NCBI RefSeq assembly: GCF_029263785.1
Contig: NZ_JAJUFE010000003.1
Location: 1-64,000, forward strand
From: Pusillimonas sp.
GTDB taxonomy: Bacteria > Pseudomonadota > Gammaproteobacteria > Burkholderiales > Burkholderiaceae_B
Length of the DNA stretch: 64,000 bases
Reading direction: 5' to 3'
Shown here piece by piece: positions 48,221 to 64,000 of this stretch (position 1 is the first letter of the stretch; the number at the start of each line of letters is the position of its first letter). The translations under genes were made by a program, and so were the position numbers. The notes beneath the pieces were generated by a model. It saw only the letters and a list, made by a program, of their open reading frames with translations, made no database searches and was not told where the DNA came from.

Positions 48221-48297
48221 AGGCGGTTAGCTCAGTTGGTTAGAGCGCTACGTTGACATCGTAGAGGTCGCTGGTTCGAATCCAGTACTGCCTACCA
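48221..48297 (+). tRNA. tRNA-Val (GAC)
   Basis: Cloverleaf of 77 nt with encoded CCA. The acceptor arms AGGCGGT and ACTGCCT pair with one G-U; the D-arm contains TAGCTCAGTTGGTTAGAGC; the anticodon stem CTACG/CGTAG encloses TTGACAT, giving anticodon GAC at 48255-48257; the T-arm is CTGGTTCGAATCCAG; discriminator A. Directly downstream begins a stretch of insertion-sequence remnants. Confidence 0.96.
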
Positions 48298-57493: not shown

Positions 57494-58611
57494 GCTTGGT
57501 CTCCTTGATTCGGTGCGTCAGATTGAAAAGCATAGCTGTCGCGCGCCATCCACCCCAGATTGGCGAACTGGCCTTCCTGAAGCTTGGGAGCACGAGCGTC
57601 GTTGAGAAGCTTCACCACAACTCGGCCGCCGCCAGCCAATTGAAAGTAGTAGCGAATGAAGTCGCCGACGTAATGTCTGGCCATGAAGCTTGCAGCAACC
57701 TGGTTATCAAACTGCCGGGATTCGCGAACAATGGCCAGCTTTTCAGGCCGTATCGACACAACGCATCGACGGCTTGTGGCACTACAATCACCGTTCCGTG
57801 CAACAAGCGGGGTTCCGTCTGGCAGGGTGGTGGTAACAGTGTCACGACCATCCAGAACAGGCCGGCCGGCAGTGATCAGGTTGTTCTCGCCAATGAAGCT
57901 GGCGACAAATGCGTTGGCAGGTTGCTCGTACAACGCGTCGGGGGTGGCGTACTGCTGGACCTTGCCCGAATTGAATACGGCGATACGGCTGGACATTGTC
58001 AGCGCTTCGGACTGATCGTGCGTGACGTAAATGACGGTAAAGCCCAAGCGACGATGCAGGCGCGTGATTTCGAACTGCATCTGTTCACGCAGTTTCTTAT
58101 CGAGTGCTCCGAGGGGTTCATCCATGAGCACCAGTGTTGGTTCGAAAATGAGGGCACGTGCCAACGCCACCCGCTGGCGCTGCCCGCCTGAAAGCTGGCC
58201 GGGATGACGGTTGGCAAACGGCTCGAGCTCGATCAGTCGCAGAAACTCGATTACCCGATGACGAATTTCAGGCTTTGGCAGACTCCGGACCTTCAGGGGG
58301 TAAGCCAGGTTTTCGGCCACTGTCATATGAGGAAACAAGGCATAGTTTTGGAAGACCATGCCGATGTTTCGCTTATGCGGGGGTATCTGCGTGATCGGGC
58401 TGCCATTAATGGTTATCTGGCCACCGGTGACATTTTCAAAGCCTGCCAGCATCATGAGCACGGTGGTCTTTCCCGATCCCGAGGGACCGAGCAAGGTAAT
58501 GAATTCGCCCTGATTTACAGTGAGGTTGAAGTCGTCGACCACCAGACTTTTTTGATCATAGGTTTTGCGGACATTGGAAAACTTGAGAAACGCGTTTTCG
58601 GTGTTTGGCAT
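57490..58611 (-). CDS. ABC transporter ATP-binding protein, PotA-like
   Basis: ATPase of 373 residues. Walker A GPSGSGKTT, Q-loop GMVFQNYALFPHMTVAENLAYP, signature [15 protein letters not shown], Walker B LVLMDEPLGALD, H-loop VIYVTHDQSEAL, and a C-terminal TOBE domain (VSIRPEKLAIV). It is the first gene of the importer operon. The start ATG 58611 has AGGACAACCG upstream; an in-frame ATG at 58692 is less likely. Upstream is the divergent thrS leader region. Confidence 0.9.
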   Translation of the reverse strand: MPNTENAFLKFSNVRKTYDQKSLVVDDFNLTVNQGEFITLLGPSGSGKTTVLMMLAGFENVTGGQITINGSPITQIPPHKRNIGMVFQNYALFPHMTVAENLAYPLKVRSLPKPEIRHRVIEFLRLIELEPFANRHPGQLSGGQRQRVALARALIFEPTLVLMDEPLGALDKKLREQMQFEITRLHRRLGFTVIYVTHDQSEALTMSSRIAVFNSGKVQQYATPDALYEQPANAFVASFIGENNLITAGRPVLDGRDTVTTTLPDGTPLVARNGDCSATSRRCVVSIRPEKLAIVRESRQFDNQVAASFMARHYVGDFIRYYFQLAGGGRVVVKLLNDARAPKLQEGQFANLGWMARDSYAFQSDAPNQGDQA

Positions 58612-58866
58612 CGGTTGTCCTGGTCGACGGTCGCTGCGGGTGTTCCTCCGAGAATAAGACCCTGCGCGTAATTGTGTTGCAGAGAATAACAATTAAGTCG
58701 GGGCGATGAAAGCGGGGTTTCCCCCGGTTGAGGGTGGGAAATAAACAACAAAACACTGCTCTTACACCGGATGATGACCTGAAGAAGCGCGTACCGCAGC
58801 ACCATTACCGGAAAATCGCCCTGTAGGTGTTACACTAGTTGCTTCATGAAAAGGGGTCGAAAATCC

Positions 58867-58908
58867 ATGCGCCTGCAGCTCGAACGAACTACGACAACGG
58901 CTTGTTAG
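58867..58908 (+). CDS. Threonine leader peptide of thrS
   Basis: A 13-codon ORF encoding MRLQLERTTTTAC with four consecutive threonine codons (ACT ACG ACA ACG, 58888-58899) and a TAG stop. AAAAGGGG lies about 10 nt before the ATG. An in-frame ATG at 58846 would give 20 residues. A TACACT hexamer (58831-58836) may be the -10 box. Four Thr codons in 13, placed 90 bp before threonyl-tRNA synthetase and before a terminator hairpin, are the hallmark of a ribosome-mediated attenuator. The ORF is too short for routine gene finders. Confidence 0.8.
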   Translation: MRLQLERTTTTAC

Positions 58909-58913
58909 TCGTC

Positions 58914-58988
58914 GCCGCGTATCGATCACCAACACCCTTCAGCAGTACTCTTCCATAAAACGCGGCAAAGGCCGCGTTTTTTGTTTTT
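58914..58988 (+). promoter_or_regulatory. thrS transcription attenuator: antiterminator and terminator
   Basis: The terminator has 10-bp perfect arms AAAACGCGGC (58957-58966) and GCCGCGTTTT (58971-58980), loop AAAG, then TTGTTTTT to 58988. The segment GCCGCGT (58914-58920), 6 nt after the leader stop, is identical to the terminator's right arm and so can pair with its left arm (58960-58966) to form an antiterminator. An earlier hairpin, ACGAC (58891-58895, in the Thr codons) with GTCGT (58908-58912), would abut and may mask that segment when the ribosome does not stall. thrS begins 11 bp after the T-run. The pairing is seen; the mechanism is inferred. Confidence 0.78.
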
Positions 58989-58998
58989 AGGATCATCT

Positions 58999-60936
58999 AT
59001 GCTTCAGATTACCCTGCCCGATGGTTCCCGCCGAGAGTTTCCCGGGCCGGTTACCGTCCACGAAGTTGCCAGTGCGATTGGCGCCGGGTTGGGGCGCGCC
59101 GCATTGGCGGGCCGCGTCACGCTCCCCGGCCAGGAACCCAAGCTCGTCGACACCAGCTTCGTTATCGGGCAGGACGCCGAATTGGCGATTATCACGGCCA
59201 AAGATCCCGAAGGTCTCGACCTTATCCGGCATTCCACTGCGCACTTGCTGGCCTACGCGGTCAAAGAGCTGTTTCCCGAGGCGCAGGTTACTATCGGCCC
59301 GGTCATCGAAAACGGGTTTTACTACGATTTTTCTTACAAGCGGCCGTTCACTCCCGAAGATCTGCAAGCTATCGAAACGAAGATGGCCGAGCTTGCTCGC
59401 AAGGACGAAGTCGTAACGCGCGAGGAGTGGGATCGTGACGAGGCGGTTGAGTTCTTCCGCAGCATCGGCGAACACTACAAGGCTGAAATCATTGCCTCAA
59501 TCCCCAGCAACGAGAAAATCAGCCTGTACCGCGAAGGTGACTTCATCGACTTGTGCCGGGGTCCTCACGTGCCTTCCACCGGCAAGCTCAAGGTCTTCAA
59601 GCTGACGAAGGTGGCTGGTGCCTATTGGCGCGGCGACAGCAAAAACGAGATGTTGCAGCGCATCTACGGTACTGCATGGGCAAGCAAGGAAGATCAGAAC
59701 GCTTACCTGACAATGCTCGAAGAGGCCGAAAAACGAGATCATCGCAAGCTGGGCCGGGAGCTAGGCCTTTTCCATTTTCAGGACGAGGCACCAGGCCTCA
59801 TTTTCTGGCACCCGAAGGGCTGGACTATCTGGCAACAGGTTGAACAGTACATGCGCGGCGTTTATCTTGAAAACGGCTATCAAGAGGTCAAGGCACCGCA
59901 GATTCTTGACCTTTCCTTATGGAAGAAGACCGGGCACTGGGACAACTACGCCGAAAATATCTTTACGACCGATTCCGAAAACCGTAGTTACGGCCTGAAG
60001 CCGATGAATTGCCCAGGGCATGTGCAGATATTCAACGCCGGTTTGCACTCATATCGCGAATTGCCCATCCGTTACGGTGAATTCGGCCAGTGCCACCGCA
60101 ACGAACCTTCGGGTTCGCTGCACGGCATGATGCGCGTGCGCGGTTTCACGCAGGACGACGGTCACATCTTCTGTACCGAAGATCAATTGCAGGATGAATG
60201 CGCGGCGTTTACTGCTCAGTTGCAAAAAGTGTATGCCGACTTTGGTTTTGACGAGATTCTGTACAAGGTCGCTACCCGACCCGAAAAACGCATCGGTTCG
60301 GACGAGGTCTGGGACAAGGCCGAACAGGCTCTTATCGATAGCCTGAATCGTACCGGATGCCAGTTTGAGATCTCCGAAGGCGAAGGCGCCTTCTATGGGC
60401 CAAAGATCGAGTACACGCTCAAGGATGCAATCGGCCGTCATTGGCAGTGTGGCACTATCCAGGTCGATTTCTCGATGCCCCAGCGGCTTGGCGCCGAGTA
60501 TGTCGATGCCAATGACCAGCGCAAGACGCCGGTCATGCTTCACCGCGCCATACTGGGTTCATTCGAACGGTTTATCGGCATTTTGCTCGAAAACCACGCC
60601 GGTGCATTGCCCCCGTGGCTGGCTCCACAACAGGCCGTCGTCTGCTGTATTTCAGAGAATTTCGCCGAATATGCCGCCGAAGTTGCCCGAACCCTGAAAA
60701 AACAAGGGTTTAGGGTTAGCGCAGATTTGCGCGGCGAAAAGATCACCCGTAAAATCAGGGAACACAGCATGCAGAAAGTTCCCTACATTTTGGTAGTGGG
60801 TGAAAAAGAACGCGACACTGCCACCGTCGCGGTCCGGGTCCGCTCTGGTGGCGATCTGGGCAGCATGCCTCTGGCACAGTTTTCGCAGCGTCTTGCAGAA
60901 GACGTTGCAACACGACGTAATGTCGGCGCGGCGTAA
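58999..60936 (+). CDS. thrS: Threonyl-tRNA synthetase
   Basis: Class II synthetase of 645 residues. N-terminal TGS domain (1-62, [17 protein letters not shown]), editing domain with [11 protein letters not shown] (His78, His82) and the distal CRGPHV, catalytic core with [12 protein letters not shown] (zinc Cys) and [13 protein letters not shown]-type motif 2 ([15 protein letters not shown]), motif 3 near [14 protein letters not shown], and a C-terminal anticodon-binding domain. Start ATG 58999 follows AGGATC; it sits right behind the attenuator, which should couple its transcription to charged tRNA-Thr. Confidence 0.97.
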
Positions 60937-60972
60937 CGCCGCCTTTCTTCATCAACTCTAGGAGTCGTAGAT

Positions 60973-61521
60973 ATCGCAACCGATAAAGCACATCGCATCA
61001 ATGGTGAAATTCGTATCCCCGAGGTGCGTCTTATAGGCCTGGACGGTGAACAGCTGGGCATCGTAAAAACACCCGAAGCTCTCCGTCTAGCAGAAGAAAA
61101 CGAAGTTGACCTGGTCGAGATTGCTCCCAATGCCTCGCCGCCTGTGTGCAGGCTCATGGATTACGGCAAGTTCAAGTACCAAGAGCAAAAGCGCCAGGCC
61201 GAGGCCCGGGCCAAGCAAAAAACCATTCAGGTCAAAGAGGTCAAGTTTCGTCCCGGCACGGATGAAGGCGACTACCAGGTCAAGTTGCGCAACCTGCGTC
61301 GATTCATCGAAGACGGCGATAAAGCCAAGGTCACACTGCGGTTCCGCGGTCGTGAAATGGCTCACCAGGAACTTGGCATGCGTGTGCTTGAGCGCGTACG
61401 CGACGATCTTGGCGAACTGATCCAGGTCGAGGCCATGCCCAAACTCGAGGGACGCCAGATGGTGATGGTGCTGGCGCCACGCAAGAAGGCCCCCGGCAAG
61501 CAAGGCGATTCCGCTTCCTGA
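60973..61521 (+). CDS. infC: Translation initiation factor IF-3, AUC start
   Basis: IF-3 of 182 residues: [27 protein letters not shown] at the N-terminus, [35 protein letters not shown] and [12 protein letters not shown]. No ATG, GTG or TTG precedes the conserved RINGEIR. The codon ATC at 60973, 8 nt after AGGAG (60960-60964), is the probable start, giving [15 protein letters not shown]. Rare AUU/AUC/AUA starts are the known device by which IF-3 represses its own translation; E. coli uses AUU and Myxococcus AUC. A start at GTG 61024 would remove 17 conserved residues. It follows thrS by 36 bp. Confidence 0.92.
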
Positions 61522-61532
61522 TTTTCACCACC

Positions 61533-61567
61533 AGGCACAGGCCGCCTATGCCCGGCGGCCTGTGCCT
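61533..61567. terminator. 14-bp perfect hairpin between infC and gshB
   Basis: Arms AGGCACAGGCCGCC (61533-61546) and GGCGGCCTGTGCCT (61554-61567) pair without mismatch around a 7-nt loop. On the plus strand TTTTT occurs 8 nt later (ACGTAGGG intervenes), so it may be a weak terminator or an mRNA-stabilising structure. It stands where rpmI would normally begin. Confidence 0.6.
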
Positions 61568-61582
61568 ACGTAGGGTTTTTCT

Positions 61583-62539
61583 ATGCACGTATTGTTCATT
61601 ATCGATCCCTTGCCTTCGTTAAAGGCATACAAAGATTCGTCTGTTGCAATGATGCGTGCTCTGGTTGCCAGAGGTCACTCGCTCAGTGTGGCCCTGCAGC
61701 AAGACCTGTACATTGACGAAGGTGTCGTCAAGGTGCAGAGCCTCGCAATCGAATTGCTCGAGGGTGCGGATCTGCACCAGGCAGCCTGGTGGCGCGAAGG
61801 GGCACGCTCCGACGTACCCCTCAATGCCTTTGATGCGGTACTGATGCGCAAGGACCCCCCGTTCGATATTGAGTACCTGTATTCGACGCATTTGCTTGAG
61901 TTCGCCGAGAAGCAGGGCGCGCGGGTCTTCAATTCGGGAGGCGCCATAAGGAATCATCCCGAAAAGCTGACGATCACCGAGTTTGCGCAGTTCACTTCTC
62001 CAACCCTGGTGACGCGCGATATGGATCGTTTGCGTGTGTTTCATGCCGAACACCAGGACGTGATTGTCAAGCCTCTGGACGGAATGGGTGGAACCGGCAT
62101 TTTCCGCTTGCAAAAAGCCGAGCCCAACCTGGGCGCCATCCTTGAAACCCTGACCGAGCATGGTACGCGTACCATCATGGCCCAGCGGTATATTCCCGAA
62201 ATTGTGGCCGGTGACAAACGCATCCTGCTTATTGACGGAGAGCCAATTCCATACGCTCTGGCGCGCATTCCGCTGGCGGGCGAGACGCGTGGCAATCTCG
62301 CGGCCGGCGGCCGCGGGGTGGCTCAACCCCTGACCGAAAGAGATTATGAAATCGCGCGTACCCTGGGGCCCATTTTGGCCCAGCGCGGTTTGCTGCTGGT
62401 TGGCCTGGATGTCATCGGCAATTATCTTACCGAGGTCAATGTCACCAGTCCCACCTGTTTTGTAGAAATTACCGAGCAGACGGATTGCGATGTCGCTCAA
62501 ACTTTCGCCATAGCACTCGAGCAAGCGGTGGGAGCTTGA
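61583..62539 (+). CDS. gshB: Glutathione synthetase
   Basis: ATP-grasp enzyme of 318 residues joining gamma-glutamylcysteine and glycine. LFIIDPLPSLKAYKDSSVAMMRAL at the N-terminus, DAVLMRKDPPFDIEYLYST, VIVKPLDGMGGTGIF (ATP loop) and EVNVTSPTCFVEI at the end. Full length. It precedes the PTS genes by 1 bp, the usual order in Burkholderiales. Confidence 0.96.
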   Translation: MHVLFIIDPLPSLKAYKDSSVAMMRALVARGHSLSVALQQDLYIDEGVVKVQSLAIELLEGADLHQAAWWREGARSDVPLNAFDAVLMRKDPPFDIEYLYSTHLLEFAEKQGARVFNSGGAIRNHPEKLTITEFAQFTSPTLVTRDMDRLRVFHAEHQDVIVKPLDGMGGTGIFRLQKAEPNLGAILETLTEHGTRTIMAQRYIPEIVAGDKRILLIDGEPIPYALARIPLAGETRGNLAAGGRGVAQPLTERDYEIARTLGPILAQRGLLLVGLDVIGNYLTEVNVTSPTCFVEITEQTDCDVAQTFAIALEQAVGA

Positions 62540-62540
62540 C

Positions 62541-62942
62541 ATGGTCCGTCTGGCCCTTGTGATGCACGCTCCGCTGGGTAACGCGTTTGCCCAGTGCGCT
62601 GCCCATATCCTGGGTCATGAACCGGAAATTCTTGTTTTCGATGTACAGGCAGACGACCCTCCCGAAGAGGCATCGCGTCGGCTGGAGCACCTCCTAAGCC
62701 CATATCAGAGCCAGGGCGCATTGATTCTTTGCGACATATACGGTGCGACTCCCTTTAACATTGCCAGTCGCACCGTTCGAAACCTTACGGATCGTGGTAT
62801 GGACGTGGCGCTGGTGACAGGCGCCAATCTGTGCATGGTGCTCAAGGCACTGACTGATAATCAGGACAATCCTGAAGCCCTGAGCGAGAAAGTGCGACAG
62901 GGCGCCTTGAAGGGCGTCGTGCGCGCCGACTGTTTTTCATGA
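62541..62942 (+). CDS. PTS EIIA component, mannose-type
   Basis: Protein of 133 residues of the EIIA-Man fold. Phosphorylatable His9 in LVMHAPLGNAFAQCA, then GALILCDIYGATPFNIASR and LVTGANLCMVLKAL. In betaproteobacteria this subunit with HPr and EI makes an incomplete PTS without sugar permeases and is thought to be regulatory. Coupled to gshB (1-bp gap). Confidence 0.9.
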   Translation: MVRLALVMHAPLGNAFAQCAAHILGHEPEILVFDVQADDPPEEASRRLEHLLSPYQSQGALILCDIYGATPFNIASRTVRNLTDRGMDVALVTGANLCMVLKALTDNQDNPEALSEKVRQGALKGVVRADCFS

Positions 62943-62996
62943 GCCGGCCGCTATCGTTTACCGGCCTTCAACGTACTCACCACATAAGAATAGAAC

Positions 62997-63269
62997 ATGC
63001 CCGCAGTAGATATCGTAATAAGCAATAAACTGGGGCTGCACGCCCGTGCTGCTGCCAAACTCACCCAGCTCGCGTCCAGCTTTACCAACTGCGAAATTCA
63101 CATTGCACGCAACGGCAAACGTGTCAACGCCAAAAGCATTATGGGTGTAATGATGCTGGCGGCCGGATTGGGAGTGACCGTCACCATTGACGCCGAAGGC
63201 CCGGATGCCGACCGCGCCCTTGCTGAAATTCAGAATCTGTTCGCCAATAAATTCGGCGAACACGAGTAA
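62997..63269 (+). CDS. ptsH: Phosphocarrier protein HPr
   Basis: Protein of 90 residues. Active-site His15 in NKLGLHARAAAK and the regulatory-serine region KSIMGVMML (Ser47) are both present, followed by VTIDAEGPDADRAL. It takes phosphate from EI and passes it to EIIA. Gap of 54 bp to EIIA and 22 bp to EI. Confidence 0.95.
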   Translation: MPAVDIVISNKLGLHARAAAKLTQLASSFTNCEIHIARNGKRVNAKSIMGVMMLAAGLGVTVTIDAEGPDADRALAEIQNLFANKFGEHE

Positions 63270-63291
63270 GTCGCAAGCCATTGAACCGCCC

Positions 63292-64000
63292 ATGAATTCG
63301 TCTGTCGAGTCAACTTCTACGACACTGAATGCCATGATCTGCATGCGCGGACAAGGCGTGGTCAAAGGGTATGCAATCGGGCGGGCTGCAGTCATGAGTG
63401 CAGCGGCCCTTGAAGTGGCTCACTATCGCATCCAGCCCGAAGATGTGGCCGGAGAATGCGAACGCCTGACGACGGCACTGGCGCACGCCAGAGATGATCT
63501 GCAGAACATGGTGCGCAACCTGCCGGCCGATGCGCCGCGCGAGATGGCGGCTTTACTTACAGTCCACAGTCTGCTGCTTGATGACCCGATGCTTGCGCAA
63601 CAGGCATGCGACCTGATTGCCGAACGGCACTATAACGCCGAGTGGGCGCTGACCACTCAGGGCCAGGTCCTGGCCGAGCAGTTTGCGGTGATGGACGACG
63701 AATACTTGCGCGAACGCGCAGCCGACATCCGCCAGGTCATAGAGCGTGTCCTGCGAGTGCTGTCGGGTAGTACGGCCTTGTTGCCCCAGCTGGAGGCTGG
63801 TCACGATGGAGAGCCCCTGATCGTTGTAGCCCGCGATATTTCCCCCGCGGACATGCTTCGTTTGCGAGGTGCCCGCTTTGCAGCATTTTTGACGGATTTG
63901 GGAGGTGCCACCTCCCACACCGCCATTGTGGCGCGAAGCATGAACGTACCCGCGATCGTCGGCATTGGCAATATCCGTGGCCTGGTTCGGGATGGCGACA
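63292..64000 (+). CDS. ptsI: PTS enzyme I (3' end off the window)
   Basis: An open frame from ATG 63292 to the edge (236 codons). MRGQGVVKGYAIGRA starts the domain, VHSLLLDDPML lies in the HPr-binding helices, and GGATSHTAIVARSMNVPAIVG contains the phosphorylated His209. Enzyme I takes phosphate from PEP. It is longer at the N-terminus than E. coli EI by about 15 residues; a later in-frame start at MICMRGQG is possible. Confidence 0.93.
   Translation, partial: MNSSVESTSTTLNAMICMRGQGVVKGYAIGRAAVMSAAALEVAHYRIQPEDVAGECERLTTALAHARDDLQNMVRNLPADAPREMAALLTVHSLLLDDPMLAQQACDLIAERHYNAEWALTTQGQVLAEQFAVMDDEYLRERAADIRQVIERVLRVLSGSTALLPQLEAGHDGEPLIVVARDISPADMLRLRGARFAAFLTDLGGATSHTAIVARSMNVPAIVGIGNIRGLVRDGD

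Follow-up and report, generated by a model that had tools for sequence, protein, structure and literature searches.

Described control systems of synthetase genes

The tRNA-mimicking operator of thrS, the gene for threonyl-tRNA synthetase (ThrRS), is a textbook case of gene control. T-boxes bind tRNA directly, without a ribosome, and the thr operon leader of E. coli and its relatives joins a Thr-codon peptide to a terminator and controls threonine biosynthesis. The E. coli thrS operator is described as tRNA-like and bound by ThrRS in the accessible part of one report (PMC9976931), and T-boxes before thrS in Firmicutes appear in excerpts of another (PMC2494555). The available portion of Naville and Gautheret presents E. 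coli ThrRS as self-regulating and mentions no thrS attenuator (PMC2965389). Attenuators of leuS and trpS are described for Streptomyces, and pheST is named for gammaproteobacteria, in the part of the source at hand (PMC1262725). For Streptomyces lividans TK24, the accessible text proposes a Thr-dependent leader, thrL, before thrS, the termination of which its authors call unclear (PMC8079986).

The locus analyzed here lies in a 64-kb stretch of DNA (the window) from a 2.7-Mb genome, assembled into 94 contigs and 98.75% complete. The attenuation of thrS proposed for it is a known mechanism, acting on a target for which we found one weak published precedent, that in S. lividans. Like the pheST, leuS and trpS attenuators, the locus has a leader rich in the cognate residue, an antiterminator set against a terminator, and a synthetase gene as its target; unlike them, it concerns another amino acid and lineage, and here the predicted antiterminator strand (strand 2) lies at a constant distance downstream of the stop codon in an arrangement that recurs across the order. 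With S. lividans thrL it shares a proposed Thr-dependent leader peptide upstream of thrS. As far as the available part of that report goes, thrL differs in its peptide (MKRVRPFLETTPGFVPAR, with two Thr), in being leaderless, in having no U-rich tract and in coming from a single genome (PMC8079986). The Firmicutes T-box is also a sensor of Thr-tRNA charging on thrS, and the E. coli operator controls the same gene, but through translational repression by the enzyme and a hairpin with a Thr-anticodon loop. The thr operon leader has a Thr-codon peptide and a terminator as here, whereas the present leader precedes thrS and hom has none.

A search of 58700-59050 against Rfam at E <=1 gave no T-box match, and the sole match, BSnc120, lay on the other strand and far below threshold. 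Both a T-box and the Rfam thr operon leader were therefore rejected, as no family matched the leader above threshold. We found no description of a thrS leader attenuator in Burkholderiales in the open-licence PubMed Central literature, and a search of the leader against plasmids returned no match.

A Thr-codon leader and terminator in front of thrS

The following features of the window are used throughout.

58828-58836, + strand: TGTTACACT, likely extended -10 promoter element with the hexamer TACACT at 58831-58836 (by eye and from recurrence)
58852-58856, + strand: AGGGG, likely Shine-Dalgarno sequence of the leader ORF (from sequence; kept in both other genus members, L003 and L004)
58867-58908, + strand: leader peptide ORF MRLQLERTTTTAC (direct reading; related Thr-rich leaders precede thrS in nearly all fetched family loci)
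58879-58912, + strand: strand 1 region, with a small hairpin overlapping the Thr codons; it can pair with the region of strand 2 (folds)
58888-58899, + strand: four successive Thr codons, ACT ACG ACA ACG, the putative sensor
58914-58920, + strand: strand 2, GCCGCGT, predicted antiterminator strand, whose distance to the first stop-codon base is 8 nt
58957-58966, + strand: strand 3, the left arm of the terminator and also the partner of strand 2 (terminator scan, folds)
58957-58988, + strand: predicted intrinsic terminator, stem and T-rich tail (sequence, terminator scan)
58999-60936, + strand: thrS, encoding ThrRS, the putative controlled gene (ORF; homology to Burkholderiales ThrRS-encoding stretches, up to 86% identical)

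The sequence-only reading had placed a Thr-codon ORF 48 bp before a terminator that ends 10 bp before the thrS ATG, and direct reading bears these positions out: 48 nt separate the leader stop from the terminator stem, and 10 nt lie between 58988 and the ATG at 58999. The Thr-codon frame ends with TAG at 58906-58908. An in-frame ATG at 58846 would give a possible 20-residue form, MKRGRKSMRLQLERTTTTAC, but the likely start is the ATG at 58867, for which AGGGG is a fitting Shine-Dalgarno sequence. The terminator stem (58957-58980) reads AAAACGCGGC-AAAG-GCCGCGTTTT and is followed by the T-rich tail, the stem-loop having a predicted energy of -15.1 kcal/mol. It was the one terminator-like site in a scan of 58600-59100, for which shuffled sequences averaged 0.6. 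Across both strands of the 64-kb window, no other short ORF combines four Thr codons in a row with a terminator downstream, and among 10,000 dinucleotide shuffles of the 200 nt preceding the terminator a short ORF with Thr-Thr-Thr-Thr arose in 0.18%. A chance origin of the leader and terminator was rejected on this figure and on the count in Burkholderiales given below.

A scan of 58600-59100 for the sigma-70 consensus matched no promoter. TGTTACACT also occurs 170-171 nt upstream of thrS in both other genus members, and the position of this likely element would place the transcription start near 58843. Both of these genomes keep RTTTTAC and an identical segment, GTCGTCGCCGCGT.

Predicted folding switch

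The pairing claimed earlier between GCCGCGT and the left arm of the terminator was confirmed: strand 2 is perfectly complementary to ACGCGGC, with a duplex energy of -9.9 kcal/mol, and the 7-nt complement on its own gave p ~0.02 for the window (row L251). The small hairpin that had been seen to overlap the Thr codons (ACGAC/GUCGU) likewise appears in minimum-energy folds that start upstream of these codons, and the pairing of strand 1 with strand 2 gave p = 0.059 in the window.

We then folded the RNA on the assumption that a ribosome reaches 12 or 15 nt downstream of the first base in its A site. When it occupied any one of the four Thr codons and transcription had just cleared strand 3, the best predicted fold contained the GCCGCGU-ACGCGGC duplex, whereas when it had reached the stop codon, strand 3 was predicted to be unpaired and no antiterminator formed. 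In folds with no ribosome, strand 2 was held by upstream sequence near the leader start and strand 3 was free for the terminator; when the first 27 nt were omitted, strand 2 was held by UCGAACG instead. Once strand 4 was included, the terminator was part of the best fold in every case. Because the terminator wins every full-length fold, the switch must be kinetic, as classical attenuators are also thought to be. The elements of an attenuator found here are a Thr-codon ORF, an intrinsic terminator, a competing antiterminator strand (in the window and in the family) and, in silico, a fold that depends on the position of the ribosome.

From the observed anatomy, its recurrence in front of thrS and the fold energies, we infer ribosome stalling, premature termination and its relief in the following form. 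When Thr-tRNA is plentiful, the leading ribosome would pass the four Thr codons, reach the stop codon and cover GCCGCGT. With this segment covered or, in an untranslated RNA, held by upstream sequence, the terminator would form and transcription would end before thrS. When Thr-tRNA is scarce, the ribosome would stall at the Thr codons, so that strand 1 could not hold strand 2; the freed GCCGCGT would pair with the terminator's left arm, and transcription would continue into thrS and probably infC. We thus consider thrS to be controlled by a ribosome-mediated transcription attenuator that senses threonyl-tRNA, with a probability of roughly 0.87 judged from sequence and modelled folds.

Conservation within the family

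To find related leaders in the family, we used a sequence-only model (R2) built from nine relatives. A covariance model was set aside: its RNAalifold helix was uninterpretable, the left arm having been misaligned by MAFFT in three of the nine rows. Matches at E <=0.01 were obtained in 39 of 61 family genomes, 31 of them below 1e-4, and the 30 best loci, from 30 genomes, were fetched; among the weaker matches, some were incomplete or lay on the opposite strand. Of the 30 loci, four to six are training sequences or near copies of them (G000, G002, G194 and G249; L250 and L253 resemble L015 and L018).

All 30 fetched loci have thrS directly downstream, and in 29 an ORF with at least three Thr in five codons is followed by a terminator. 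Apart from Thr and an Arg, the peptides have little in common, and both their lengths and their N-termini differ (MNATRTTTWLLS, MHLKTTRTTTTRLN, MYSSPMTTTRTTTRHF and others). Downstream of the leader, 25 of these 29 have a stretch of 6 nt or more that is perfectly complementary to the terminator arm, with a mean complement length of 6.6 vs 4.8 in shuffles and p <=0.05 in 15/29; the combined p of 7e-11 is too small, because the sequences are related. In 14 of the 25, the first base of the stop codon and the start of the complement are exactly 8 nt apart, regardless of which stop codon is used (TAG, TGA or TAA), as would be needed for a terminating ribosome to mask the complement.

The sequence-only reading had looked to close relatives for retained Thr codons and complement. 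This held for the genus members and for the family loci just described, and failed for Neopusillimonas maritima (L005), the nearest named relative, and for others without a leader. In L005, L013, L091, L116 and L158, a promoter-like element and a terminator are present without a Thr leader: a TGNTANANT-type string lies upstream of thrS, and the terminator follows within some tens of nucleotides. One further relative (L016) has a terminator after tRNA-Val and no leader, and in another (L063) ATA replaces ATG and the Thr codons are lost. These leaderless relatives, together with L063, indicate that the leader was lost more than once.

Distribution across Burkholderiales

We assembled 171 thrS upstreams from Burkholderiales, a set that is not random. 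It comprises the window, two genus members, the 80 named loci nearest to the query, the 29 best from an order search in 399 genomes, and 60 chosen manually to cover a range of families; L002, which duplicates the window, and L130, which has a short upstream, were dropped. Certain species are represented by two loci (L009 and L092, for instance). Order membership of the named loci was assigned by similarity, and the titles of L017 (Methylopumilus) and L053 (Chitinophaga) name other taxa, the latter being probably a misnamed bin. Among the named loci kept, the ThrRS nearest to that of the window is from N. maritima (86%), followed by Bordetella and Achromobacter (83-84%), and on this basis we regard the genome as one of the Alcaligenaceae.

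A terminator was found in 136 of the 171 upstreams, and in 73 it was preceded by a leader ORF with at least three Thr in five codons, compared to 3.4 in shuffles. By the same measure, the next residues were Val and Ser, with 15 each, and 98 of the 171 upstreams fell short of the Thr threshold. An earlier terminator finder, which missed stems running into the T tract, had given terminators in 125/170 or 126/171 and 68 Thr leaders vs 2.4 expected; with a looser Thr measure, it gave 87/126 vs 9.3 expected. The leaders come in several styles: ARTTTRNFRPMSR in Achromobacter and Bordetella, MTPRTTT in Massilia, Roseateles, Leptothrix and others, and MIQAPRTTT in Ralstonia soli.

The sequence of strand 2 follows that of the terminator arm. 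Where the arm contains ACGCGG, CCGCGT occurs after the Thr run in 7/34 and CCGCGC in 0/34, and where it contains GCGCGG, CCGCGC occurs in 6/29 and CCGCGT in 1/29. With GTGCGG arms, CCGCAC was found in 0/6. An order-wide duplex test, which is a weak one, gave p <=0.05 for strands 2 and 3 in 10/65, and the corresponding test for strands 1 and 2 did so in 18/91 leaders; the combined p values (1e-6 and 2e-11) are too small for related sequences such as these. The antiterminator is clear in the family of the window and only scattered elsewhere.

Comparison with other Gammaproteobacteria

For comparison, we used 68 thrS upstreams from other Gammaproteobacteria, one per family, drawn from the better-scoring part of 122 genomes with a match (28 loci, after L174 was dropped as Burkholderiales, and 40 further places). 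A single Thr leader was found among them (0.4 expected), in L179, where the ORF enters the 5' end of tRNA-Val. Within the 140 nt preceding thrS, 31 of the 68 carried a hairpin whose loop resembles the tRNA-Thr anticodon loop, vs 0.5 in shuffles, as did 2/171 Burkholderiales vs 0.95 by chance. The loops exist in CUCGUAU and GGU-type versions, with the triplets alternating between CGU, GGU and UGU (L175-L242). A tighter form of the pattern, used before it was loosened to allow a closing mismatch, had given 11/68 vs 4/171. The 31 hairpins suggest an apparently wide spread of the E. coli-type ThrRS operator. None of these 31 upstreams has a Thr leader, and the window has no Thr-anticodon-loop hairpin within 140 nt before thrS. 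The chance-level occurrence in the Burkholderiales examined supports the earlier claim that control here is distinct from that in E. coli.

In 75 of the 171 Burkholderiales and in 49 of the 68 others, the 450 nt upstream of thrS contain a tRNA-Val gene, often with a terminator directly after it, from which we infer that the attenuator may have grown out of the tRNA-Val terminator. A start-site table for Cupriavidus metallidurans lists thrS under the tRNA locus Rmet_R0015 in its available part (PMC9045368). We lean slightly towards a scenario in which Burkholderiales swapped control of thrS by a ThrRS operator for a leader-peptide attenuator, with a Thr-rich mini-ORF arising between an ancestral tRNA-Val gene and its terminator, so that many members would now have regulated readthrough from the tRNA promoter. 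As judged from sequence comparison, the mode of thrS control was probably exchanged lineage-wide. If true, one regulatory RNA device would have replaced another on the same gene, with a plausible ancestor in the tRNA-Val terminator, and the leaders would represent a regulatory RNA family without an Rfam match.

Codon use and alternative explanations

Threonine makes up 27% of the leader residues. In 79 distinct RTT leaders, the core CGAACUAC (58885-58892 in the window) is nearly invariant: 75 have CGA for Arg and 74 have ACT for the first Thr, while the second Thr codon is ACG in 41, ACC in 13, ACA in 13 and ACT in 12. The later Thr codons vary in the third base yet remain Thr, which speaks for decoding, whereas the nucleotide-level fixation of CGA and of the first ACT goes beyond what decoding alone explains. 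Pairing with the post-stop segment accounts for part of this conservation: 24 of 93 leaders have TAGTCG as their stop region, and full complements of the core occur in L050 and L057.

This fixation, third bases included, is what would favor reading the 5' region as a translational operator bound by ThrRS, as in E. coli, with the core acting as protein-bound RNA and not as regulatory codons. Since the later Thr codons shift their third base without ceasing to encode Thr, the core conservation is partly explained by pairing, and the anticodon-loop hairpin is absent from the window and at chance level in Burkholderiales, we regard such an operator as highly improbable. Sensing of a different or an additional residue, such as Arg, by a leader-peptide attenuator would account for the Arg that precedes the Thr run in the 79 RTT leaders; the share of Thr among the residues, the additional Thr codons on either side of Arg and the identity of the downstream gene, thrS, make it less probable still.

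It is also conceivable that the terminator is only what is left of a stop signal that once ended transcription of an upstream tRNA-Val gene, the Thr codons being incidental. The frequency of tRNA-Val genes with terminators ahead of thrS, and the terminators without a leader in some relatives, agree with this. However, no tRNA lies directly upstream of thrS in the window (the nearest is at 48221-48297), a promoter-like element precedes the leader there, Thr leaders far exceed their number in shuffles, and the position of the antiterminator strand is tied to that of the stop codon. A remnant of this kind is very unlikely, if a shade less so than the operator. The attenuator that senses threonyl-tRNA remains our preferred reading.

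Genomic surroundings of thrS

In the genome of the window, hom overlaps the end of an upstream ORF, an aminotransferase by reading, and a Thr leader before hom was rejected, as none was present at that locus. The sole tRNA gene found in the window, tRNA-Val (GAC) at 48221-48297, is situated 10.7 kb upstream of thrS; in many relatives, tRNA-Val lies immediately ahead of thrS. Downstream, thrS and infC are followed by genes read by eye as gshB and PTS genes (60937-63999). The usual gene cluster is infC-rpmI-rplT, and rplT was located on the same contig 8.7 kb further (C77:70192-70509), indicating that the cluster is split here. At the expected start of infC (60973-61024), there is no ATG, GTG or TTG. 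By eye, the frame suggests a start at the ATC at 60973, behind AGGAG; E. coli infC likewise starts with a rare codon.
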